Assembly (NCBI GenBank): GCA_002712285.1 | Contig: PATC01000001.1 | Coordinates: 6,662-49,970 of the forward strand | DNA from: Methanobacteriota archaeon | Lineage (GTDB): Archaea > Thermoplasmatota > Poseidoniia > Poseidoniales > Thalassarchaeaceae | Reading direction: 5' to 3' | DNA length: 43,309 nucleotides | In this document: in pieces, positions 33,604-43,309 of the stretch | How positions within the stretch are numbered: the stretch's first letter is position 1 | How the letters are laid out: each line of letters begins with the position of its first letter | The notes under the pieces: model-generated | The model's input: only the letters and a program-made list of their open reading frames with translations | Databases searched by the model: none | What the model was told of the DNA's origin: nothing | Position numbers and translations under genes: made by a program

Positions 33604-34644
33604 TCATTCCTCTTCGGAAATTGTAAGAATCTCAGCCCATATTGGTAGCGTAAAAGTCCATTTCCGGCTCATGCGTTCCCCGTTTTCTATGATGCGATCA
33701 AGCCGTTCCATTGACGAGATTGATCTTTTATCTCGAAGTGCCCGATATAGGCGACTTTCCCGATATTCATTGGGTATGCAAAGTAAACCGCTAGAAAGCT
33801 CAGCATTGATTGCACGAGTCAATTCGTGAGCAGGGCGATTTAATCGGTGGACATGGCGCTTAACCCATCGACTTCCATAGAGAAAGGATGCAAAGATGAT
33901 TAAGAATCCAAGAACCATCGTCGAAAATCCGCCTGATAGGATTCCGTTGGTTTGTAACCATTGAAATCCAATAGCTTCAATCCACACAAGTGGCATCAAA
34001 AAGGTGAGTAACCAGAATGTTTCGGTCGTAGGCTTCCTACCTGAGAATGCTTTGATTCGAATCCACCCCTCATCGCTTGGATTGTTTGGACGAAAGAAAT
34101 CGGTACTATTTGCTGCAGCCATTTTGATCTGCTCGCTCATAGTTCTGAGGCGCATCATACTCTTTGGATCAGGCTGTTCCATGTTCTCTCCGAAAATCAG
34201 GTCAATTCGGTCAGCAGCCTCTGCATATTCGCCAAACTCGGCAAGAATAGCAACCTGTTCAACTAAAGGTACCACTGCTTTGGGATCAAAGGTTCTGCGT
34301 GAATCCCACCACTGTAGGGCGTCCTCAAACATTCCTAACTCATCAACCAACAACCGGCCTCCAATTGCCCACGCTTCCTCGTTTTCTGGGTTCTCTGCAA
34401 TAACAATTCGACACTTATGCAAACCTTTTGCAGCATCTTGTAGGCTCATTTTTGTGGGGCGGTCTCCTCTTGGCCCTGTACGACTGAAGAGTTCTCGAAT
34501 TTCTGACATTAGGGCATCTTCATGATGCGGATTAATCTCGAGTGCCTTGGCGCGTAATTCAACGAAATTATCGCGGTCTGCTAGATCTCTTGCTTCCATG
34601 GCATCCAACCAGACATCGTCAGCGCTGCGACTTTCATCCCCCAT
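33604..34644 (-). CDS. TPR-like membrane protein of unknown function (two TM segments)
   Basis: N-terminal helical-repeat-like region; hydrophobic segments TFWLLTFLMPLVWIEAI and FSTMVLGFLIIFASFLYG. Confidence 0.65.
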   Translation of the reverse strand: MGDESRSADDVWLDAMEARDLADRDNFVELRAKALEINPHHEDALMSEIRELFSRTGPRGDRPTKMSLQDAAKGLHKCRIVIAENPENEEAWAIGGRLLVDELGMFEDALQWWDSRRTFDPKAVVPLVEQVAILAEFGEYAEAADRIDLIFGENMEQPDPKSMMRLRTMSEQIKMAAANSTDFFRPNNPSDEGWIRIKAFSGRKPTTETFWLLTFLMPLVWIEAIGFQWLQTNGILSGGFSTMVLGFLIIFASFLYGSRWVKRHVHRLNRPAHELTRAINAELSSGLLCIPNEYRESRLYRALRDKRSISSMERLDRIIENGERMSRKWTFTLPIWAEILTISEEE

Positions 34645-34701: not shown

Positions 34702-35748
34702 TCAACTACGGCGCCTATCTCTGAATGATCCATTGGAACCCCCACTTCGGTGATTCCTTCTACCTCGATTTCCAGAGAAGCGTTTACTGTCTCGTCGGTC
34801 ACCTAATCGGCGAACTCCTTCTGAGTTGCCTCTTCGAGGTGTCTTATTGGCTGAATCATTACCTCCTGAACCGTCTTTGTTTCGTCCACATCGATTACAT
34901 TCAGTCCTGAAGGCGAAGTTACTGTTACCGCACTGCTTGCAGGTCCAATCGCCTTCCCGCGCCTCGCTCTGATTACTATCTTTGCGATCTCCACCTCTAC
35001 GGTCACCCCATGATGAACGTCGTTGGTCTCTACGATCTCCACCCCTACGGTCTCCGCCTCTACGGTCTCCGCCTCTACGGTCTCCGCCTCTACGGTCTCC
35101 GCCTCTACGGTCTCCGCCTCTACGGTCTCCACCTCTACGGTCTCCACCTCTACGGTCACCCCATGATGAGCGTCCTTGGCTTCTACGATCGCCTCCACTT
35201 GGTTTTGGTTCATCGCAATTTGATCGATTACATACGTTCTTACTTGCGAAATTGTGATTGTTGCACTTTGGACACATCCAGTCACCTGGCTTCATCCTTG
35301 AATTCTGGTCGTCTATGCGGCGATCACCCCATGAACGATTACGTTCGCCACGTTCGCCACCTCTGCGGTCACCACCTCTACGGTCGCCCCATGACGAGCG
35401 TCTTCTGTCTCTACGGTCGCCACCCCTGCGATCGTTACGTCGATCAAATTGTCTATCGCCCCGATTATCACGTGAAAATCGAGAACGTCCGTTGTCTCGT
35501 CGCTCACGGCGTTCCCGCGGGGCTAGTTCTAGAGTTGAACCAATGAGGGTTTCAGCTTCGAGATGAGGGTCTAGGATTACGAGATTAACCACTGGATCAT
35601 CAATAGGACCAATCACACTATCAACGCGACCAACCGTAGTTCCAGTACTATCTCGGAGTCGCTGGCCTAAACGGGGTACGCCTCCATCGAAACTCGCCAG
35701 AACGGACCCTTCGTGGGTCACACGCAGAACCGTGGCTGTGTAGGACAT
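34702..35748 (-). CDS. gar1: Gar1-like H/ACA RNP protein with RGG/GGDRR repeats and two RanBP2-type zinc fingers
   Basis: N-terminus VLRVTHEGSVLASFDGGVPRLGQRLRDSTGTTVGRVDSVIGPIDDPVVNLVIL (Gar1 signature); GDWMCPKCNNHNFASKNVCNRSNC and GDWTCKQCGNSNFAFRTECNRCG; tandem GGDRR. Confidence 0.82.
   Translation of the reverse strand: MSYTATVLRVTHEGSVLASFDGGVPRLGQRLRDSTGTTVGRVDSVIGPIDDPVVNLVILDPHLEAETLIGSTLELAPRERRERRDNGRSRFSRDNRGDRQFDRRNDRRGGDRRDRRRSSWGDRRGGDRRGGERGERNRSWGDRRIDDQNSRMKPGDWMCPKCNNHNFASKNVCNRSNCDEPKPSGGDRRSQGRSSWGDRRGGDRRGGDRRGGDRRGGDRRGGDRRGGDRRGGDRRGGDRRDQRRSSWGDRRGGDRKDSNQSEAREGDWTCKQCGNSNFAFRTECNRCGRNKDGSGGNDSANKTPRRGNSEGVRRLGDRRDSKRFSGNRGRRNHRSGGSNGSFRDRRRS
35026..35160 (-). repeat. 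15-bp tandem coding repeat (GGDRR units)
   Basis: About nine 15-nt units of the form tctacggtctccgcc (forward), several identical, inside the Gar1-like CDS. Confidence 0.92.
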
Positions 35749-35751
35749 GAC

Positions 35752-37821
35752 TCAATCGCGCCGTCCGGCGTACATGAGCGCTCCGATGACTGCAACCACG
35801 ATGAAGGCGATTCCAGGTGCAGGCAAAGAACCGGAATCCTCCGGTTCAGCGACGATGGCAGGTGGTTCGATTATGTTCCCTGTATTGAATAAGAATGAGT
35901 TGTCAACTGTTTGCGTAATTGTTGTGCAGACATTCGATTCATCACATGCTGTGATAGTAACAACATGTTCTCCTTCGCTAAATATGTCGAAGTTAATTTG
36001 CTGACTACTCCAAGTATTCCCACTTGTTGAAATCTCACCACCAGCGGCTCCATCAATTTCGATAGTGAATGTTACAGCTTCCCCATCTGGGTCACTGAAA
36101 ACACCGGTGACTTGCCACATACTACCATCGAATTCAGCACTGGAGATACTGATAGTGGGTGGCTGACTTGATTTCATCAGAATAGTGTCGAAAGTGTAGT
36201 GGAAATCAGACATTCCTTCGCCAGTAGCATGAACACGTAACTGGATTTCTCCTGGGCTGAGAGATCCAGTATCCACAACAATTGCGTCACCGGGGATTGT
36301 TCCGGTGGATGATGCTGTGCCGCCTTCCTGGAATAGGGTAACTGTAACTTCCATTACAGGTTCAGCATCTTGTGTGTCAATTGTGAAAGTATGTGATGCC
36401 TGTATGTCAGTGTTGAACATTACAGAAAACGGAACGAAAAGATCGAACACACGATGGTCTCCTGCACGTGCTGATCCATTGTCGTCGATATCGTAAGGAG
36501 TACATTCAACTGAACTTGCTTGTTGACCATTTGTTGTAACTTGCCAAGCCCCATCAGCGGCTTCAGCAATGGTCCAATCTCCAGATAGTCGCACACAATT
36601 CAGGTCTATGGCAGAGAAACCAGCTTCGTCAGTTAGCCAAAGGCCTTGGTTCACTACGGAGATGAAGTCTACAGTAACACCTGATGGAACAGGGATTTTG
36701 TCATCATGCGCAGGTGCCGCTGCAGTCCATTGAGGGGGGTCGTTTGGTGGCGGTGGTTGGTTCGTGAAGTCGGCAAACATGTCCTGCCCTGCAGGCCATG
36801 TGTTCAAGTCGAAGTCAGTGTGAACTTGCACAGTTAGAGAACCATCCGAATTCTCAGTCACGGTTTCAGTGATGGTTCCATCACCAATACAGCCGCCGAC
36901 TGGAGGTGTAGATCCTTGGTGCATCTCATGTTGGACGATTCGTCCATCGCATTCCTCAAACAAAGCAACACGTAATGGATCCCCATCGTTAGAATCTTTT
37001 TCTGGGAAATTCATTATTAGTTCAGCGTTTGTCATGTTAGTAGTGTTCATGGCAATGGTGAAGTAATCAGAATTAGCCAAATCTGCTGCCCAAGTCATGG
37101 TTCCATTAAGCCAGACAATTATCTGACATTCATCGGGTGCTGTTGCATCTGTGGTGTCACAGTTGCGTGTTGTTGCAGCATCTGTAGGTCTAACTGGAAC
37201 TTCATAGCATTCGCCGGTTGCTGAGAGTCGGCTTTGAGGTGGACAACTTCTGTTGTCGGGATGATGAGGTGGAAACAGATTCCAGTATTCTAACTGAAGC
37301 GGATTTGCTTCGTCATTTATCCAAGATGCATTTTTCCAATCAACACCCTCTCCCCCGCGATGAGGTTCACCGGTGCGGAATCCGAATCGGGGATTTGTTT
37401 CAACGATACAATCGTCAGTTATGTCGAGAATCATATTTTCCTCTTGATTAGAGAGGTATCCATTTGCTCCTCCCGGAGCCCCAACAGTGCCTATCAAGTC
37501 GTCTAAATCGAAGCGCACTTGATCGGACAAGCTGTTGTTGATATACGCAACAGCAGAAACCTGTGCACTGGCATAATCCGCGTTAATATCCACTGAGAAG
37601 CGCGCATAGGAGTATACGAACATGTCTTCAAAGGTCAAACCCTCGCAAGCGGCACCAATTAGTTCCTCTCCGGATTGCCGAGATTCGGTATTTTGGGGAT
37701 TGACAGGCTCCCTTAGTAAGTCATCAGAGGGCGTCAATATCCCCAATGTCGTTGCTCCAATCATGAGGAGAATCATTGCGTTCGCGAGTAATTGTCGAGT
37801 GTTCACCATGGTGGTCACCAA
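35752..37821 (-). CDS. Secreted surface protein with C-terminal PGF-CTERM-like sorting signal
   Basis: Signal peptide LLANAMILLMIGATTLGIL; C-terminus EPEDSGSLPAPGIAFIVVAVIGALMYAGRRD (PG-hydrophobic-basic tripartite). Confidence 0.78.
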   Translation of the reverse strand: MVTTMVNTRQLLANAMILLMIGATTLGILTPSDDLLREPVNPQNTESRQSGEELIGAACEGLTFEDMFVYSYARFSVDINADYASAQVSAVAYINNSLSDQVRFDLDDLIGTVGAPGGANGYLSNQEENMILDITDDCIVETNPRFGFRTGEPHRGGEGVDWKNASWINDEANPLQLEYWNLFPPHHPDNRSCPPQSRLSATGECYEVPVRPTDAATTRNCDTTDATAPDECQIIVWLNGTMTWAADLANSDYFTIAMNTTNMTNAELIMNFPEKDSNDGDPLRVALFEECDGRIVQHEMHQGSTPPVGGCIGDGTITETVTENSDGSLTVQVHTDFDLNTWPAGQDMFADFTNQPPPPNDPPQWTAAAPAHDDKIPVPSGVTVDFISVVNQGLWLTDEAGFSAIDLNCVRLSGDWTIAEAADGAWQVTTNGQQASSVECTPYDIDDNGSARAGDHRVFDLFVPFSVMFNTDIQASHTFTIDTQDAEPVMEVTVTLFQEGGTASSTGTIPGDAIVVDTGSLSPGEIQLRVHATGEGMSDFHYTFDTILMKSSQPPTISISSAEFDGSMWQVTGVFSDPDGEAVTFTIEIDGAAGGEISTSGNTWSSQQINFDIFSEGEHVVTITACDESNVCTTITQTVDNSFLFNTGNIIEPPAIVAEPEDSGSLPAPGIAFIVVAVIGALMYAGRRD

Positions 37822-42042: not shown

Positions 42043-43309
42043 ATGGGGAATCCAGTGAGGATCAGTTCGGCTGCTGTTGTTCTAATCCTACTGATGCCGT
42101 TTATGTTCTCCTTTGGTGGAGAAATTCTCTACGAGGCCAATCTTTCCCAGAATACTAGTGGTCGCGACCATTGCGAAGACATAGGAGACGAAGCTAGTTG
42201 CAACTCTGACAACCGATGCGAATGGGATGAGGAGGACGACCCCTCCGATTCAGATTACCCTGGTGAATGTGAAGACACAGATTCGCATGAAGATGAAAAC
42301 TCCAGTGATTCAAGCTCGAGTGATTCAAGTTCGAGTGATTCAAGTTCGAGTGATTCAAGTTCCAGCGATTCTAGTTCCTCAAGTGGTAGTGGGAATGGAA
42401 ATGGCAACTCTGGTTCAGGCAATGGTGGAAGTGGACAGGCTCCAACGGATACCGATGGGGATGGCATAGACGATGCAGCGGATGATGATGATGATGGAGA
42501 TGGGGTAAAGGATATCGATGATGATTGCCCACTTGATTCGAATGAAACAGTCGACACTGATGGAGATGGACTTTGTAATAATTCAGATTTTGATGATGAT
42601 GGTGATGGTGTAAATGATGATCAAGATGCCTTCCCCCTTGATCCTTCAGAGCAATCGAATTTTGATGGTGATGCGCGAGGAGATAATCTCGACGAAGATG
42701 ATGACAATGATGGTGTTCCCGACACAATGGATGATTTCCCATTGAATGCTTCTGAGCAATTTGATACTGATTCAGATGGTATTGGTGATAACACAGATGA
42801 TGACGATGATAACGATGGCGTGAAGGATGACCAAGATGCATTCCGATACGATCCTTGTGCTGATACTGATTCTGATATGGATGGTAAGCCAGATGTAATC
42901 CGAGCCGGATGCTCAACTAATTTGGTTGAAGACATGGATGACGATAATGACGGCATATCTGATGCCTCAGACGATCAGCTCGATATTGATCAAAATGCGG
43001 CACCTGATTTTGATCGCGATGGTATTCCCGATATCGAGGATGATGATGATGATAACGATGGGACACCTGACGTATCCGATGCTTTCCCCTTTAATCAGTC
43101 AGAAAGAAGTAATTTTGATGGAGATTTCATGGGTGACTTCTACGATCCAGATGACGATAATGATGGCATAAACGATGTTGACGACATGTTCCCATTCGAC
43201 GCTAGTGAATGGAAGGACAGCGATCGCGATGGAATTGGCGACAACGCCGACTTGGATGATGATAACGACATGATTCCTGATGATGAGGATGATTTCCCCT
43301 TAGATTCTG
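42043..43309 (+). CDS. Partial thrombospondin type-3-like, extremely acidic Ca-binding surface protein (C-terminus beyond the window)
   Basis: Own translation, open to window end: MGNPVRISSAAVVLILLMPFMFSFGGEILYEANLS...HCEDIGDEASCNSDNRCEWDEED...(SDSSS)n...DTDGDGIDDAADDDDDGDGVKDIDDDCPLDSNE... Absent from ORF track owing to truncation. Confidence 0.88.
   Translation, partial: MGNPVRISSAAVVLILLMPFMFSFGGEILYEANLSQNTSGRDHCEDIGDEASCNSDNRCEWDEEDDPSDSDYPGECEDTDSHEDENSSDSSSSDSSSSDSSSSDSSSSDSSSSSGSGNGNGNSGSGNGGSGQAPTDTDGDGIDDAADDDDDGDGVKDIDDDCPLDSNETVDTDGDGLCNNSDFDDDGDGVNDDQDAFPLDPSEQSNFDGDARGDNLDEDDDNDGVPDTMDDFPLNASEQFDTDSDGIGDNTDDDDDNDGVKDDQDAFRYDPCADTDSDMDGKPDVIRAGCSTNLVEDMDDDNDGISDASDDQLDIDQNAAPDFDRDGIPDIEDDDDDNDGTPDVSDAFPFNQSERSNFDGDFMGDFYDPDDDNDGINDVDDMFPFDASEWKDSDRDGIGDNADLDDDNDMIPDDEDDFPLDS
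42304..42378 (+). repeat. 15-bp tandem repeat encoding SDSSS linker
   Basis: Five units AGTGATTCAAG(C/T)TC(G/C), the last diverged. Confidence 0.9.

Follow-up and report, generated by a model that had tools for sequence, protein, structure and literature searches.

The window analysed here is a 43,309 nt stretch of the genome of a Marine Group II archaeon (Poseidoniales, Thalassarchaeaceae). On its minus strand, an ORF running exactly from an ATG start at 35748 to position 34702 (34702..35748) encodes a 348 aa protein that joins a Gar1 domain to an RG-rich tail with two RanBP2-type zinc fingers. Orthologues of this fusion protein occur across the order and the surrounding gene order is kept. 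The upstream neighbour (35752..37821, minus strand), which lies 3 nt before the Gar1 start, encodes a secreted or membrane-anchored protein of about 690 aa, and the same neighbour is present in the loci of both Poseidoniales families. The downstream neighbour (33604..34644, minus strand) encodes a helical-repeat plus membrane protein of about 346 aa and recurs in loci L192, L208, L214, L256 and L268. The loci of both families keep one arrangement: a gene for a secreted protein of about 670 aa, then Gar1, then the helical-repeat membrane protein.

Because the same N-terminal domain is found in about 118 genomes with conserved gene order, the ORF is not a chance one. Readings of the locus as a pseudogene, a chance ORF or a wrong frame were discarded, as the orthologues share the Gar1 frame and the other frames merely echo a 15 nt repeat. 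The overlapping ORFs at 34803-35285 (minus strand), 35010-35546 (plus strand) and 35258-35566 (plus strand) are mirror readings of this GGDRR-coding repeat and not genes; they read as VEAETVEAET, LYGLRLYGL and RSPPLRSPP repeats. Eukaryotic contamination was likewise discarded, given that archaeal gene order is kept in both families and that the single-contig genome G024 carries the gene.

An AlphaFold model of the whole protein, for which ten family members were supplied, predicted three ordered islands at residues 1-82, about 151-184 and 263-292, together with one short helix just before the first finger. These islands correspond to a Gar1 beta-barrel domain (35503..35748, minus strand, as are all features of the protein) and the two fingers (35197..35298 and 34873..34962). 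They are separated and followed by sequence that is predicted to be disordered: an Arg/Gly/Asp-rich linker of residues 83-150 (35299..35502; pLDDT <50 at residues 83-144), a GGDRR/RGG-rich linker of residues 185-262 (34963..35196; pLDDT <50 at residues 187-261), and a basic C-terminal tail of residues 293-348 (34705..34872; pLDDT <50 at residues 295-303 and 305-348).

Taken as a lone sequence, the window protein left its Gar1 identity in doubt. Its match to Pfam PF04410 (Gar1) had an E-value of 0.05 and 13.8 bits against a cut-off of 29.3, the NCBIfam Gar1 match (E 0.001) fell below the curated cut-off, and a phmmer search of the PDB matched Pyrococcus Gar1 2hvy_B only weakly (E 0.09). Since these scores were sub-threshold, we built a family profile from 17 aligned orthologous N-terminal domains of relatives. 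PF04410 was the sole recurrent family among these domains, with 16 of the 17 matching; their E-values against NCBIfam Gar1 reached 9e-7, and the family profile ranked Pyrococcus Gar1 first in the PDB (E 5e-4). An AlphaFold model of the Gar1 domain from 54 sequences (pLDDT 90, pTM 0.77) gave Pyrococcus Gar1 2ey4/2hvy as its best three Foldseek matches (E 2e-4, TM 0.79/0.87), followed by yeast Gar1 and then by insect and human Gar1. Naf1 shares the Gar1-type beta-barrel but is the weaker structural match (Foldseek E about 5e-2 vs 2e-4 for Gar1), and a Naf1 identity was discarded; NAF1 is reported to be seemingly absent in archaea (PMC10123114). The motifs P-x-L and G-x-V-x-x-V-x-G form a conserved core common to canonical archaeal Gar1 and the window family. 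Profile, AlphaFold and Foldseek together settle the domain as Gar1, as the original prediction had read it, and the predicted fold and sequence matches lend good support both to the architecture of the 348 aa protein and to its identity as Gar1, a component of the H/ACA pseudouridylation RNP.

The predicted pair of RanBP2 fingers was recovered by Pfam PF00641 with an E-value of 3.9e-13 and 48.9 bits, above the cut-off of 27, and both the pattern W-x-C-x2-4-C-x3-N-x6-C-x2-4-C and the curated score were found. Finger 1 (residues 151-184; pLDDT about 90) matched the family finger profile at E 3e-17 (G000:C1:41855-41956). Its second cysteine pair is C-x4-C, and it has S/K where ZRANB2 has R81/R82. 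Finger 2 (residues 263-292; GDWTCKQCGNSNFAFRTECNRCG) is FUS-like; it was detected by Pfam, by the finger profile (G000:C1:41534-41623) and by phmmer, in which it matched ZRANB2 F1 (1n0z, E 6e-7) and also ZRANB2 F2. It keeps the contact residues D, N, F, R and N, and has F at the R81 position, where FUS has W.

Searched against the PDB, the finger profile ranked ZRANB2 F1, FUS, ZRANB2 F2, TAF15 and RBM10 above the nucleoporin fingers. We then mapped the RNA-contact positions onto the ZRANB2 numbering of a published study (PMC6384913), the mapping being our own (D68, N76, 79, R81/R82, N86). In 141 fingers the aspartate was present in 141, N76 in 139, an aromatic residue at position 79 in 141, R/K at position 82 in 141 and N86 in 138; the motif used to collect the fingers fixed the W, the cysteines and N78, which are not independent evidence, and left the listed contact positions free or nearly free. 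Among 94 distinct fingers, 65 keep the D, N, aromatic, R82 and N together. The R81 position is usually F. In ZRANB2 the contact residues read GGU, and the W that replaces the corresponding arginine in FUS and EWS leaves specificity intact, whereas ZRANB1-B, with K/S at the arginine pair, does not bind RNA (PMC6384913). By these residues and by the profile ranking, the fingers match the single-stranded RNA-binding FUS/ZRANB2 subgroup of GGU type. RNA binding may be weaker in finger 1 than in finger 2, because S/K replaces the guanine-reading R/R of ZRANB2. The predicted FUS/ZRANB2 resemblance thus stands for the class and for finger 2, and only in part for finger 1 (S81, K82).

Outside the fingers, the tail of the window protein consists of 31% R, 22% G and 14% D, with 12 RGG and 16 RG motifs. 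This composition and the low pLDDT values bear out the predicted Arg/Gly/Asp-rich low-complexity region. The long G/R-rich stretch with several RG/RGG motifs is that of a GAR/RGG domain, with an Asp content unlike that of nucleolar GAR domains. The net charge of the tail per residue is +0.16 in the window protein, with group means of +0.20 and +0.32, and aromatic residues make up about 4% of the window tail. Within the second linker lies a tandem array of 8.7 copies of the 15 nt GGDRR-coding unit (35028..35157, minus strand; 95% match), seen by TRF and in the codon listing. As the units are nearly identical, the length of the GGDRR repeat in the window is probably the result of recent slippage. 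The R/G-rich composition is kept well outside the array, and also in species that have none.

A profile of the N-terminal domain matched 118 of 128 sampled Poseidoniales genomes, with one copy in each except the MAG G038, which has two. The absences are probably assembly gaps, because in many loci the contig stops partway through the tail. The RG/finger repeats are a frequent site of assembly breaks, as seen at L020, L024, L026, L028, L032, L036, L040, L041, L044, L045 and others; the tailed Gar1 gene is therefore often fragmented in MAGs and likely to be under-annotated. Two contigs titled Gammaproteobacteria and Rhodobacteraceae (L239, PBUF01000091.1; L250, PARX01000028.1) carry a Poseidoniales Gar1 and appear to be MAG contigs that were mis-binned or mislabelled. 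A search for a second Gar1 found none in the window's own genome (a MAG, 74% complete) or in the single-contig relative G024, where only the tailed form is present; the additional canonical Gar1 that might have spoken against the original prediction did not appear in either. Cbf5 and Nop10 were found in all 18 genomes examined, the window's own included.

Of 244 genomes of the class, 148 contain fingers that score above the Pfam cut-off. The named loci yield 60 complete proteins, nearly all of them from Thalassarchaeaceae; 39 have one to three fingers and 21 have a basic R/G-rich tail only. Up to four fingers are found in the other Poseidoniales family, and the number differs between genera. 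Several Thalassarchaeaceae lineages have no fingers, which implies that the fingers are dispensable. In genus g10 (L124-L127), a shortened finger variant, WVCSACRSMNSRTSKCSKCG, is mostly missed by Pfam and is possibly an intermediate of finger loss. The Gar1 domains in the order are often only 32-48% identical to that of the window, and tail length spans about 65 to more than 400 residues. The fusion of Gar1 with an RG tail and fingers is real in its architecture; surveying orthologues showed that it is not an isolated case but a trait of the whole order.

All Poseidoniales fall on one branch of the Gar1 tree (100/99), with fingers in both families, although the 83 columns give little resolution; on these sequences, the simplest reading would be ancestral fingers with later losses. 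In MGIII, of the same class, Gar1 lies in open frames of 75-89 aa. Most Gar1 proteins in other Thermoplasmatota have 75-130 aa, and a few of them end in a short basic tail. Two such proteins (L142 and L160, family f11) have basic tails of 45-65 residues with one or two RG motifs, possible patchy precursors of the long tails. The finger profile found no match in 58 genomes of MGIII and other Thermoplasmatota; as a positive control, it matched 17 of 19 Poseidoniales genomes, with every match but one marginal case inside the Gar1 ORF or in a fragment of it at a contig edge. The independent origin that had been proposed for the fusion is supported within Thermoplasmatota, where the sister MGIII and the other orders have a short Gar1 and no such finger. 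A search of viral contigs found no relative.

The protein resembles several known systems in part. It shares with canonical archaeal Gar1 (Pyrococcus 2ey4/2hvy) the beta-barrel and the single copy alongside Cbf5 and Nop10, but the canonical form lacks a long RG-rich tail and zinc fingers and has at most the short basic tail of L142 and L160; the NCBIfam PRK13149 Gar1 models span 68-97 positions. Eukaryotic Gar1 (yeast, human) likewise combines the core with disordered RG/RGG extensions that are thought to contact RNA. Its GAR domains lie on both flanks and it has no RanBP2 fingers, whereas the Poseidoniales tail is C-terminal only, Asp-rich (GGDRR) and usually finger-bearing. The FUS/EWS/TAF15 proteins and ZRANB2 have the same class of GGU-reading single-stranded RNA fingers amid RG-rich or RS-rich disorder, but no Gar1 domain. 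FET proteins also contain an RRM and a prion-like domain, and ZRANB2 has an RS domain.

We found no report of the Gar1, RG tail and RanBP2 finger architecture in the open-access literature searched. GAR domains have been stated to be absent from archaeal snoRNPs, a basis for speculation on how nucleolar organisation evolved (PMC11528048, 2024), and the RGG domains of Gar1 have been treated as eukaryote-specific (PMC8096250). An order of abundant marine surface archaea contradicts both statements. The Poseidoniales and their relatives also offer a natural comparison of lineages with a bare Gar1, a tail only, or a tail with one to four fingers, so that what these tails contribute to H/ACA catalysis can be tested directly. 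Fingers of the FUS/ZRANB2 single-stranded RNA class are now placed in archaea, on a defined and conserved RNP subunit.

What might the tail do? Archaeal Gar1 governs substrate loading, turnover or product release, and the guide-independent activity of Cbf5 (PMC6138745). In yeast the Gar1 core suffices and the GAR domains increase substrate turnover (PMC10123114), or have effects on catalysis and substrate exchange that depend on the hairpin (PMC8096250). We favour, with moderate confidence, a single-copy Poseidoniales Gar1 extended by an order-specific RNA-tethering arm that aids substrate loading and turnover. The Gar1 domain would dock on Cbf5 as in Pyrococcus and regulate the thumb loop, while the flexible arm would make electrostatic contacts through its RG motifs and, through its fingers, prefer GGU/GGN in single-stranded RNA. 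Pre-rRNA or another substrate could in this way be held near the Cbf5 active site, and the higher local substrate concentration would promote loading and turnover, by analogy with the yeast Gar1 RGG domains. In lineages without fingers, the basic tail alone may do the tethering.

The tail could have a role other than tethering H/ACA substrates. A general RNA chaperone or ribosome-assembly function, in which the tail coats nascent pre-rRNA or mRNA in cold surface seawater and the Gar1 domain serves as an anchor, seems to us rather unlikely, although strongly basic R/G-rich disorder with a variable complement of zero to four fingers does resemble a general single-stranded RNA-binding module, and the finger count shifts freely between genera. 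Across the genomes to which the finger profile was applied, however, the module is fused only to Gar1, suggesting a role linked to the H/ACA RNP. No RG or lysine-rich/GAR extension occurs in those fibrillarin and Cbf5 frames that were readable. Among the RNP proteins compared, an RG tail thus seems to be peculiar to Gar1.

The same frames bear on the idea that the tail brings H/ACA RNPs together in a condensate resembling a nucleolus, by analogy with the GAR-domain proteins of the eukaryotic nucleolus. Multivalency would be supplied by RG/RGG-rich disorder with multiple RNA-binding fingers, and the GAR domains of eukaryotic Gar1 and Nop1 drive droplets (PMC11528048). However, condensation in yeast needed KKE/D domains (PMC11528048), for which the readable Cbf5 and fibrillarin frames offer no counterpart, and aromatic stickers are scarce in the tail (about 3-4%); we regard this idea as improbable. 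In an evolutionary version, which we likewise regard as improbable, Poseidoniales evolved an RG-tailed, finger-bearing Gar1 independently of eukaryotes and use it to draw H/ACA RNPs together with pre-rRNA into a nucleolus-like compartment; if true, the compartment would be a prokaryotic convergence on GAR-domain nucleolar organisation. A tail left over from simple-sequence expansion, almost neutral and with little function, would fit the near-identical array and the wide range of tail lengths. We consider this very improbable: more than 90 distinct fingers retain the RNA-contact residues, short-tailed lineages that have no repeats keep the R/G composition, and the tail is present order-wide despite the divergence of the Gar1 domains.

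Elsewhere in the window, a plus-strand ORF at 42043-43308 runs past the window end; its product is a secreted protein, rich in Asp, that contains thrombospondin-3-like calcium-binding repeats. This protein bears a Ser/Asp 15 nt repeat, with a tandem repeat at 42304-42377, and the His-rich ORF at 42371-42916 on the minus strand is its antisense echo. The translated ORFs between 5129 and 14739 form an apparent haem biosynthesis cluster, from glutamyl-tRNA reductase to ferrochelatase.
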